Virus record (IMG/VR): IMGVR_UViG_3300025137_000149
Span: 1-33,093 of that record
Direction: 5' to 3' (one strand)
From: a virus
DNA length: 33,093 bases
Shown here in pieces: positions 4,959-25,612 of the stretch. A program made the position numbers and the translations under genes. The notes beneath the pieces are model-generated. The model was not told where the DNA came from and did no database searches. It saw only the letters and a program-made list of their open reading frames with translations. Each line of letters opens with the position of its first letter. The stretch's first letter is position 1.

Positions 4959-5110
4959 TACTTACCTACCTTTTTCATAGCTTTTTTATGCGCCGCTGTA
5001 AATGTACTTCCGTTACCCATTTCTTTTTTCATAAATGCCATATGTTTTGCGGTGTGATGTTTTTTATGTTTTTTAAGTGTTTCTTCTTGCCTTTTAGTTA
5101 ATTTATTCAT
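4958..5110 (-). CDS. Small His/Lys-rich basic protein, unknown function
   Basis: A 50-residue frame: it starts MNKLTKRQEETLKKHKKHHT and ends TFTAAHKKAMKKVGK. It is joined to its neighbours by single-base overlaps on both sides (TAATG at 5110, TAGTG at 4958), which is strong evidence of a translated gene. Lys and His make up a large share of the residues, so it is strongly basic and helical. I recall similar short phage proteins with the same TFTAAHK.AMK.VGK ending in marine phages, without assigned function. Binding to nucleic acid or membrane is possible; nothing in the sequence decides it. Confidence 0.7.
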   Translation of the reverse strand: MNKLTKRQEETLKKHKKHHTAKHMAFMKKEMGNGSTFTAAHKKAMKKVGK

Positions 5111-23319: not shown

Positions 23320-23349
23320 AAAAAAATGCCCCCCCTAGAAGAGGGGGCT
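23320..23349 (-). terminator. Rho-independent terminator after the capsid accessory gene
   Basis: On the minus strand a C-rich arm (GCCCCC) and a G-rich arm (GGGGGC) form a 6-bp all-GC stem around a short pyrimidine-rich loop, followed by A and seven T. It lies between the stop at 23362 and the ATG at 23308, so it would cap the capsid-gene transcript and lower expression of the connector genes. It is the cleanest intrinsic terminator in the window. Confidence 0.85.
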
Positions 23350-23361
23350 AGTATTGGAGTT

Positions 23362-23823
23362 TTATCCTATGAATGCAATTACTGTATAAGTACTTTGTGC
23401 AGTACCGGCATTACCAGTAGTCGGGCCAGTCTTGACATGGATGTCAATCGTAGTGTCCGTAGCAACTGAGAATGGGCCGGGTGCAAACAATGTGTCATCT
23501 GCAGCATTATCAAAAGTACTTTTCTTGTTAATGGTTGACTTGGCGGCATCATCAACAATGTCGTCAGATGTAGAGACAACAGTTAAATCAGTGTTGCCAT
23601 ATCCAACGTCATATCTGATGGCAGAACCATCGTCACCAGCTGGTAATGTAACTTCTACACCGTACAGCTTTTCACCTTTTTTCAAGGGTACCATTTGAAT
23701 TACGTCATTTATCACGACCGCTGCTGGTACTACAAAAGTACATTCACGAACGTGCAAATAACCATTAGGGGCTGTAAAAGCTGCATTGCTTTCAACTAAC
23801 CCAGATTTATATAAAGTAGCCAT
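23362..23823 (-). CDS. Probable capsid accessory/decoration protein
   Basis: 153 residues, beta-rich, Thr/Val/Asp-rich and acidic, no signal peptide, starting MATLYKSGLVESNAAFTAPN. It is the only gene sharing the transcript segment between the major capsid gene and the strong terminator, so it would be made in amounts close to the coat protein. That expression logic and its size fit a capsid decoration or stabilising protein. GAGAGGTGA precedes the ATG at good spacing. No family motif recognised. Confidence 0.55.
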   Translation of the reverse strand: MATLYKSGLVESNAAFTAPNGYLHVRECTFVVPAAVVINDVIQMVPLKKGEKLYGVEVTLPAGDDGSAIRYDVGYGNTDLTVVSTSDDIVDDAAKSTINKKSTFDNAADDTLFAPGPFSVATDTTIDIHVKTGPTTGNAGTAQSTYTVIAFIG

Positions 23824-23840: not shown

Positions 23841-24989
23841 TTATTGGGCTGTGTCTAAGCAAATAACACCAAAGTCTTGAACGGCGGCACCAGTGCCAGC
23901 GTAGTCAGTAGTGTATTTTGGTTTACGTAAGCCAAAGATCTTGCCGATGCTGATACCATGTTGGTTACCATAATCGAAAGTTTCTTCAACAACCTCGGGA
24001 GCACCGATGTCGGCCATTGCAAGTGCTTGAGCGCCACAAAACAATGCTCGCGCACCGTCAATAGTACCGCCTGAACCCCATTTATTACCGGCTCCAGCGC
24101 CACTTGTGTTATACACATGACGGAACTCGTGGATCATGATGCCATCAACCATTAAGCTTGAGTTACCTGCAAACAAGCTGTTGTTAGGTCCACGAACACC
24201 TGCGTTACGGACATTAGCTAAGAAATCACTATCTAATTTCAAGTCAGCCATTTGTCTTGGAGTAACAAACATGTGATACATTTCACCGTTAGCGCCACCT
24301 CTAATGCCTCTGATGTAGTTATCTTTAGCATGTGCTTTAAGATCTACAATTGCATTGTAAGACAACTTATCAGTAACAGCTACACTACCAGTAGCCCCAG
24401 CTTTTAACTCAACATAAGCACCGCCAGTGCCTGAAGAGTCAATGCGTAAGTGACGCTGGTTAGTAGGAGTAGCGGCTGCAGCTTCAGCAGCAAACTCAAG
24501 TTCACTTAAGTTTTGACCAGTACCAAGAACAGACCTTAGCGCGCCATTGTTTTTGTAAGCGTAAGAAACGCCAGACAAAGTTAAAAACGCAAGTTGGTCA
24601 ATACGATCAGCCATTGCATAAGCAAGTGCATCACGAGATTGCTCACGGAAATTTACAACAGTTTTTTGGTCGGTTAATCGGCCAGCTAAACGATTTGCAA
24701 AGCGCAATTGATCCAGCTCGATGCTGATATCATAAGCGCGTAATGCTTCTTCGTTGCCTTCGAGATCGTGATCACCAACAACACCGTCGGTATTCATATC
24801 AGCAAGCAAAGTAATGTTAGCTTTTGTGCCTTTTTGAGATTTAGTAAGTTCAGTAACGCGCTGAACCATAGCGTTTGAGCCAGTTCCAGCAAATTGGTTA
24901 ATAAACGACTGATTTCTTGCCACACGCCAGAAGTCGCGTGACCACATTTGTAGCTGTTCACCTGACAGCGTACCAAAGTTAGTCTTCAT
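23841..24989 (-). CDS. Major capsid protein, N4 gp56 / DUF4043-like
   Basis: 382 residues. Features typical of the N4 gp56-like coat family (PF13252): SQKGTKANITLLADMNTDGV (strand pair after the N-arm), DQLRFANRLAGRLTDQKTVV, the ALAYAMADRIDQLAFLTLSG helix at about 134-153, and the C-terminal IGAPEVVEETFDYGNQHGIS, then GKIFGLRKPKYTTD. HK97-fold coats of this class assemble with a scaffold, present two genes upstream. GGAG lies 7 nt before the ATG (25000-24997). A 257-nt untranslated gap precedes the gene, unusual in this compact block. The coat assignment is strong; the subfamily is from motif memory. Confidence 0.85.
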   Translation of the reverse strand: MKTNFGTLSGEQLQMWSRDFWRVARNQSFINQFAGTGSNAMVQRVTELTKSQKGTKANITLLADMNTDGVVGDHDLEGNEEALRAYDISIELDQLRFANRLAGRLTDQKTVVNFREQSRDALAYAMADRIDQLAFLTLSGVSYAYKNNGALRSVLGTGQNLSELEFAAEAAAATPTNQRHLRIDSSGTGGAYVELKAGATGSVAVTDKLSYNAIVDLKAHAKDNYIRGIRGGANGEMYHMFVTPRQMADLKLDSDFLANVRNAGVRGPNNSLFAGNSSLMVDGIMIHEFRHVYNTSGAGAGNKWGSGGTIDGARALFCGAQALAMADIGAPEVVEETFDYGNQHGISIGKIFGLRKPKYTTDYAGTGAAVQDFGVICLDTAQ

Positions 24990-25109
24990 GGTTTTTCTCC
25001 AAAAAATTAACGAATAAAATTAGTGGCACACGCCACTGCTATTAGCCGACTTAATGGAGCGGCTAATCCGTTTCCCCGTATCGTGGAGCGACGAACTAGC
25101 GCTGATTAG

Positions 25110-25133
25110 CGAGGCGCGACCTCGGCCTTTTTT
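25110..25133 (+). terminator. Plus-direction hairpin followed by T6
   Basis: CGAGG/CCTCG 5-bp stem with a 5-nt loop, three spacer bases, then TTTTTT at 25128-25133. It acts on rightward transcription, antisense to all nearby genes. The stem is short and the spacer reduces confidence. Confidence 0.35.
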
Positions 25134-25134
25134 A

Positions 25135-25161
25135 CGTCTTGGGTAGACGAGAGCGTTTTTT
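25135..25161 (+). terminator. Second plus-direction hairpin with T6
   Basis: CGTCT/AGACG stem with loop TGGGT, six bases later TTTTTT at 25156-25161. It shares the sequence TTTTTTACG with the preceding unit. Two such units in tandem look like a double antisense terminator, although each alone is weak. Confidence 0.3.
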
Positions 25162-25210
25162 ACGTGATCGACACGACCATATATCGTAATGGTATACGAA
25201 TGTTCATCTA

Positions 25211-25239
25211 ATAGTAGTATAGGTAATAAGAAGATGCAA
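25211..25239 (-). promoter_or_regulatory. Possible sigma70-type promoter for the capsid gene
   Basis: On the minus strand TTGCAT (25239-25234) and TACTAT (25216-25211) are separated by exactly 17 bp, with transcription expected to start near 25204. A TATACT overlaps at 25221-25216. The -35 box coincides with the loop of the 18-bp inverted repeat. Each hexamer is only a partial match, so this stays tentative. It would give the coat gene a leader of about 215 nt. Confidence 0.3.
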
Positions 25240-25257
25240 CTTTTTATTACCTATACT
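25216..25257. repeat. 18-bp inverted repeat spanning the stop codon of the DUF5872-like gene
   Basis: Arms AGTATAGGTAATAAGAAG (25216-25233) and CTTTTTATTACCTATACT (25240-25257) pair over 18 positions with one G-T wobble around the 6-base loop ATGCAA. The stop codon (25249-25247) lies inside the right arm. No T-run follows on the minus strand, so it is not a standard terminator. RNase III-type processing, mRNA 3'-end protection or a protein-binding operator are possible. Confidence 0.75.
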
Positions 25258-25612
25258 TTGCCGTTTTCTTAGCAATTCGTTTTGGTTGCTTACTAAACTG
25301 CTTTCCTGCTTTCGTGTCTTTGGCTTTTTTACGATTGGTGGCTCGTTTCTCAGCGGGTGTTAAAGCCTCACGAGCTTTTTTAGGTAAATAGCGAGATTTT
25401 TTCTTCTTGCCCGCATACCCCCAATCTTCTTTAGACCATTTAGACAACTTATTAGAAGACTTTTTCTTACCTGAGTAAGTGCCCCCTGAGTCTTTGTAGT
25501 ATTTAACGGCTAGCTGCATAGCTCGCGCTGAGTGTTTGCCACCCATTTTTGCTTTTGCGCGAGCTTTTGCTCTAGCCCATTTAGCAGGATCGCGTTTAGT
25601 CGCCGTGCTCAT
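25247..25612 (-). CDS. DUF5872-like very basic protein
   Basis: 121 residues, with Lys plus Arg a large share. Motifs: SARAMQLAVKYYKDSGGTYS (about 28-47), LSKWSKEDWGYAGKKKK, RYLPKKAREALTPAEKRATN and a C-terminal KQPKRIAKKTAKYR. The order matches DUF5872-type proteins that I recall from phages and large viruses, of unknown function. It begins 3 nt after the stop of the 38-residue AT-hook-like gene with no Shine-Dalgarno, so translation is probably coupled. Its location between scaffold and coat genes and its charge suggest DNA contact inside the head, but this is not shown. Confidence 0.7.
   Translation of the reverse strand: MSTATKRDPAKWARAKARAKAKMGGKHSARAMQLAVKYYKDSGGTYSGKKKSSNKLSKWSKEDWGYAGKKKKSRYLPKKAREALTPAEKRATNRKKAKDTKAGKQFSKQPKRIAKKTAKYR

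Follow-up and report, generated by a model that had tools for sequence, protein, structure and literature searches.

The leader locus and its distribution

The window, that is, the whole stretch of 33,093 nucleotides analyzed here, is a 33-kb virus record whose minus strand carries a 257-bp non-coding gap (24990-25246) between the gene for the major capsid protein (MCP) and the ORF upstream of it (Table 1). The sequence-only reading had described this gap ahead of the capsid gene as structured, relatively rich in G+C, and devoid of ORFs, and our analysis bore out each of these points. The stems are present, including an 8-bp stem (25041-25048/25060-25067); the G+C fraction is 0.43 in the gap and 0.50 in its structured core (25039-25201), compared with 0.41 in the window; and no conserved ORF was detected. 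A coding leader was rejected because leader lengths fall into all three classes modulo 3 and few leaders contain a long open frame. A seeming second gap at 4959-5109 carries a small ORF of ~50 aa (MNKLTKRQEE..., with an ATG start at 5110), so that 24990-25246 stands as the main large non-coding gap within the minus-strand operon. Compared with dinucleotide shuffles, the folding energy of the gap was better on the minus strand (z = -2.57; 4 of 200 shuffles as good) and unexceptional on the plus strand (z = -1.17; 23 of 200 as good).

Table 1. Features of the MCP transcription unit and its leader in the window (positions in window coordinates)
Feature	Position	Strand	Details	Evidence
ORF upstream of leader	25247-25612	-		
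Inverted repeat	25216..25257	.	near-perfect, 2 x 21 nt, over upstream gene's end and MCP promoter	
Promoter, sigma70-like	25211..25239	-	TTGCAT-17-TACTAT; predicted +1 near 25204	-10-like hexamer position in relatives
P1 hairpin and PK1	25176..25199	-	at predicted mRNA 5' end; stem 25193-25189/25180-25176; PK1 UCGU 25199-25196 with ACGA 25187-25184	P1, E ~0 in tree-based scan, 100% of cells paired on A2; PK1, 0/1000 shuffles in both alignments
P2 hairpin	25163..25175	-	CGUG-UCGAU-CACG	stem supported by covariation scan and pair counts
P3 hairpin and PK3	25126..25149	-	stem 25149-25145/25139-25135; PK3, loop with segment just 5' of P4	unbiased scan; 0/1000 shuffles, A1 and A2
P4 hairpin and PK4	25100..25124	-	CGAGG-UCGCG-CCUCG; stem 25124-25120/25114-25110; loop CGC 25118-25116 with GCG 25102-25100	pair counts, shuffles
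P5 hairpin and candidate PK5	25074..25094	-	stem 25088-25085/25077-25074; UCGU 25094-25091 with ACGA 25084-25081	P5 among strongest covarying pairs
P6 hairpin (the 8-bp stem) and PK6	25041..25069	-	inner stem 25064-25060/25048-25044, outer part to 25067/25041 weaker; GGA 25069-25067 with UCC 25058-25056	pair counts, RNAalifold, shuffles
P7 hairpin	25022..25037	-	AGUGGC-GUGU-GCCACU; variable, absent in some clades	alignments
Shine-Dalgarno of MCP	24997..25000	-	GGAG	sequence
MCP gene, served by leader	23841..24989	-		phrog_334, 8e-81
153-aa ORF	23362..23823	-	between MCP and terminator; without PHROG or Pfam match	
Intrinsic terminator closing MCP unit	23328..23348	-		equivalents in most relatives

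An initial MCP query of IMG/VR found 131 encoded relatives, of which 80 were kept, and two further queries each returned at least ~600 matching stretches; the leaders collected ahead of homologous MCP genes comprised 116 distinct sequences. When a DNA pattern drawn from the gap alone was used instead, at least 119 stretches matched, and among the matches listed the downstream ORF, wherever one was present, was this MCP. Our covariance model recovered one good copy in 14 of 18 whole records, an extra match in one record (E = 6) being noise. In the records searched, the structured leader was always located directly ahead of the MCP gene and in single copy, the fixed position ahead of one gene family that characterizes a conserved cis-regulatory leader, and it is common to well over a hundred phages, mostly uncultured. 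For MCP pairs of 65-100% amino-acid identity, the RNA core was 0.55-0.82 identical; it is about as conserved as the MCP coding sequence and more so than fourfold MCP sites (0.40-0.62), which indicates that the RNA itself is under selection.

Conserved hairpins and pseudoknots

Comparison of the relatives revealed a conserved structured RNA of ~165 nt on the minus strand with six hairpins (P1-P6). In alignment A1 (66 sequences under 94% identity), 94.3% of 2,540 pair cells were standard pairs, compared with 28-43% when the partners were slid, and changes on both sides were seen in 24 of 39 pairs. Alignment A2 (62 distinct rows gathered in new searches, mostly outside the training set of the model) had 90.6% of its cells paired and both-side changes in 30 of 31 pairs, with the proviso that it was fitted to the model and hence leans toward the structure, and that some of its contigs overlap the first set. 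An unbiased scan of all column pairs against a tree-based null, run with our own script in the manner of R-scape, returned seven top pairs (E 0 to 0.07), mostly standard pairs and all in P1, P2, or P5; compensatory base-pair changes beyond phylogenetic expectation, as in a conserved structured leader, were observed. Covariation had been named as the check on the 25041-25067 stem, and stem pairs proved to be kept with many compensatory changes, including its inner five pairs, with the outer three weakly supported (65-76% of cells paired). Taken as comparative evidence, these patterns indicate that the gap almost certainly encodes the 5' leader of the MCP mRNA, a conserved cis-acting RNA.

The loops of P1, P3, P4, and P6 pair with a flanking strand in covariation-supported H-type pseudoknots (PK1, PK3, PK4, and PK6), and the P5 loop very probably does likewise (PK5). 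Each of the four exceeded 1,000 shuffles in A2; in A1, PK1, PK3, and PK4 were matched by 0 of 1,000 shuffles and PK6 by 26 of 1,000. These shuffles ignore phylogeny, and in the tree-based scan the pairs of the same four pseudoknots reached E values of ~2 to 150 over 13,041 tests, significant only as single tests. PK1 varies by exchange of U-A and C-G, changing UCGU/ACGA to UCGC/GCGA. PK3, which emerged from the unbiased scan (25144-25125; 95% standard pairs, five co-substitutions), has only 2 bp in the window itself. In PK4, the P4 loop UCGY pairs downstream, with versions CGC/GCG, CGU/ACG, and CAUA/UAUG in relatives. PK6 was first proposed by RNAalifold and occurs as GGA/UCC, GGG/CCC, and GGU/ACC; in pooled shuffles, the covariation of the P6 loop with the upstream GGA was matched in 0 of 500. 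The strands of PK5 are near-invariant in the clade of the window; in distant relatives, the module also appears as UCGG/CCGA and UCGC/GCGA. A further candidate, pairing of the P2 loop with the downstream linker, failed in both alignments (801 and 190 of 1,000 shuffles) and was rejected. Single relatives, such as L280 (CAGU/ACUG), hint at a pairing of the P2 loop.

Predicted promoter, terminator, and transcription unit

Of 159 distinct sequences, 152 have a -10-like hexamer at a distance of 6-16 nt upstream of PK1, compared with 42.8 in shuffles; this places the predicted start, and with it the mRNA 5' end, within a few nucleotides of PK1. A -35-like TTGCNT/TTGACA is frequent 17 nt upstream of the -10 (TAATAT), with single-sequence scores mostly not significant. 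Most relatives have an intrinsic terminator (typically GCCCCCTCTTCGGAGGGGGC plus T) that starts ~10 nt past the MCP stop, directly after the gene, whereas in the window it sits after one extra gene, the 153-aa ORF. A T7-type RNA polymerase gene was not found in the window, in 11 related virus records, or in KPP25, with the T7 positive control detected, and the result for the relatives fits host-type promoters. Relatives often carry a palindrome other than the inverted repeat of the window, ATATTAG-N5-CTAATAT, between -35 and -10, which is possibly a repressor operator; promoter palindromes reached p <= 0.05 in 15 of 66 sequences, a suggestive count only, as the sequences are related.

Possible functions of the leader

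RppH and RNase E depend on a 5' end that is single-stranded, and this accounts for the stabilization of mRNAs by 5' structure (PMC3997798). This principle, together with the arrangement seen here, namely, a structure at the 5' end, a separate promoter, a 3' terminator, and a capsid gene, fits a protective role, and we give an even chance to the reading that the 5' structure protects the MCP mRNA against 5'-end-dependent decay and keeps capsid output high. Transcription would start within a few nucleotides of PK1, and the mRNA 5' end would be buried in a stack of pseudoknots. The buried end could then hinder 5'-end-dependent decay, presumably by RppH and RNase E in gammaproteobacteria-like hosts or by RNase J elsewhere, and the 5' array and the 3' terminator hairpin together might keep the MCP mRNA long-lived in late infection. 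Accessibility of the ribosome site in computed folds was intermediate (0.41-0.46 unpaired), neither open nor closed. One hairpin would suffice for simple 5'-end protection, yet ~165 nt are retained and many of the loop bases hardly vary, a hint that there may be a specific partner. In distant lineages whose leaders escape the covariance model, the module UCGN - stem - N'CGA - stem is still present, altered by compensatory changes. A more tentative proposal, which we hold to be possible rather than probable, is that an array of up to six H-type modules caps the 5' end of the capsid mRNA and acts either as a modular barrier to decay or as a landing site, repeated along the array, for a capsid-assembly protein, which would link coat production to assembly and would represent a new class of phage RNA.

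The main rival to 5'-end protection is a translational operator, in which a phage protein (MCP, scaffold, or other) would bind the pseudoknot array and repress or activate MCP translation, as T4 gp32 does by binding the pseudoknot of its own leader. The leader resembles the T4 gene 32-type operator in containing an H-type pseudoknot (PMC3014915). Its module is repeated, its array stops some tens of nucleotides short of the MCP AUG, and loop bases including ACGAUA and UCGNA are more conserved than base pairing requires. However, the P6 loop shows no covariation with the ribosome site, the spacing to the AUG and P7 differ among clades, and the binder is only hypothetical, such that we consider this explanation rather unlikely. 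The sequence-only reading had also offered a regulatory leader controlling coat protein output; it was right in kind, since this is the structured leader RNA of the capsid gene, whereas switch-type regulation drew no support. A riboswitch, thermosensor, or attenuator, masking the ribosome site or terminating transcription, might be suspected because the P6 loop (CUCC) is complementary to the Shine-Dalgarno GGAG, a region into which the minimum-energy fold of the single sequence also pairs. Covariation of the P6 loop with the Shine-Dalgarno region was nevertheless matched in 151 of 500 shuffles, and given its covariation with the upstream GGA instead, a switch at the ribosome site is disfavored and was rejected for this loop. 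Attenuation was likewise rejected, with attenuator-like units in just 9 of 112 leaders. Neither a conserved alternative pairing with the ribosome site nor a conserved terminator was found in the related leaders, and no Rfam riboswitch matched; this whole group of mechanisms is highly improbable.

Because the RNA begins right at a promoter-like element and a strong terminator after MCP is followed by more minus-strand genes, a cis-acting antitermination RNA resembling HK022 put, whose nascent structure would modify RNA polymerase to pass late-operon terminators, also deserves mention. Such an element would, however, defeat the terminator immediately after MCP, and the six-hairpin form would seem to differ from put; we regard antitermination as improbable. 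The high conservation and compact fold across ~165 nt could also suit a leader released as a stable non-coding RNA acting in trans, e.g., in assembly or packaging, but the leader is always joined in cis to MCP and has no conserved terminator at its 3' end (sense terminator-like units in 9 of 112), which makes this a very improbable account. The probability of an antisense RNA or of plus-strand terminators, the other alternative of the sequence-only reading, is close to negligible. The tandem plus-direction hairpin-T6 units on which it was based do exist in the window; they are not conserved, however, terminator-like units of that direction occurring in only 14 of 112 related leaders, and are thus incidental. 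The plus-strand fold is ordinary, and no convincing plus-strand gene ends at the gap.

Relation to known systems

At the gathering threshold, Rfam 15 (4,227 families) gave no match in the window, and relaxed searches yielded only chance-level matches (E up to 5 in eight related loci and up to 10 over the gap). Consecutive small H-type pseudoknots make up the upstream pseudoknot domain of plant RNA viruses. That domain (Rfam, e.g., RF01109) shares this consecutive arrangement with the MCP leader but lies in the 3' UTR of eukaryotic RNA viruses, with no homology shown; a match to it over PK1 was at chance level (15 bits, gathering 33, E 4.8). The T7 gene 10 unit, phi10 promoter-leader-gene 10-Tphi (NC_001604), is likewise an MCP transcription unit placed among late genes and equipped with a promoter, leader, and terminator of its own; that leader measures ~60 nt, and the promoter is one used by the phage polymerase, whereas here the leader holds a structured RNA of ~165 nt and the relatives yielded no T7-type polymerase. 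In T4-type phages, the gene 32 leader has an H-type pseudoknot 67 nt ahead of the AUG, the mRNA is very stable, and gp32 binding has been demonstrated (PMC3014915); that is a single pseudoknot on the gene for an ssDNA-binding protein, in contrast to an array on MCP. The 5' hairpins that stabilize bacterial mRNAs similarly place structure at the extreme 5' end, where it hinders RppH and RNase E (PMC3997798), but consist of simple stem-loops and not of a conserved array of pseudoknots. Leaders with structure, and pseudoknots within leaders, are already known; a pseudoknot array of such form on a capsid mRNA was not described in Rfam or in the open literature searched.

The leader represents a structured RNA family with strong support that Rfam does not contain, and it serves the gene that is, among structural genes, usually expressed most highly, in a phage clade that is abundant, as judged from the two larger IMG/VR scans. 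How coat protein is made in large amounts from host-type promoters, in phages for which searches returned no T7-type polymerase, becomes a testable question, and the hundreds of natural variants of this pseudoknot array would be a resource for studies of bacterial mRNA stability.

Distant lineages and cultured phages

A clade with MCPs ~54-59% identical has shorter leaders that the model missed, yet these carry UCGG-GUAGU-CCGAUA-ACUAC, the same module changed on both sides. In the various sets, the module's two variable bases were complementary in 69-81% of instances, compared with 42-55% expected, related instances not being independent. Model R1 had no homologous match in the cultured relatives KPP25, phiA008, and AP1 or in a Spirabiliibacterium contig; by eye, the leaders of all four contain similar UUCGY hairpins. 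In a pseudoknot-sum test, KPP25, phiA008, and AP1 were not significant and the Spirabiliibacterium locus (L210) was, although the test is a weak instrument that recovers the window's own array poorly (5/100). This locus, from a cultured strain of Spirabiliibacterium mucosae (NZ_JABTBO010000005.1), encodes an MCP relative (52%) on a 110-kb contig and is probably a prophage; a terminator lies upstream, and a TATAAT box and CGU/ACG-type hairpins are also present. Another group (L374-L388 and L419) has an MCP leader that is distinct and shorter, in which CCC/GGG and UCGG/CCGA appear to form pseudoknots. An intrinsic terminator lies immediately before its promoter, and this leader could be modeled as a separate RNA family.
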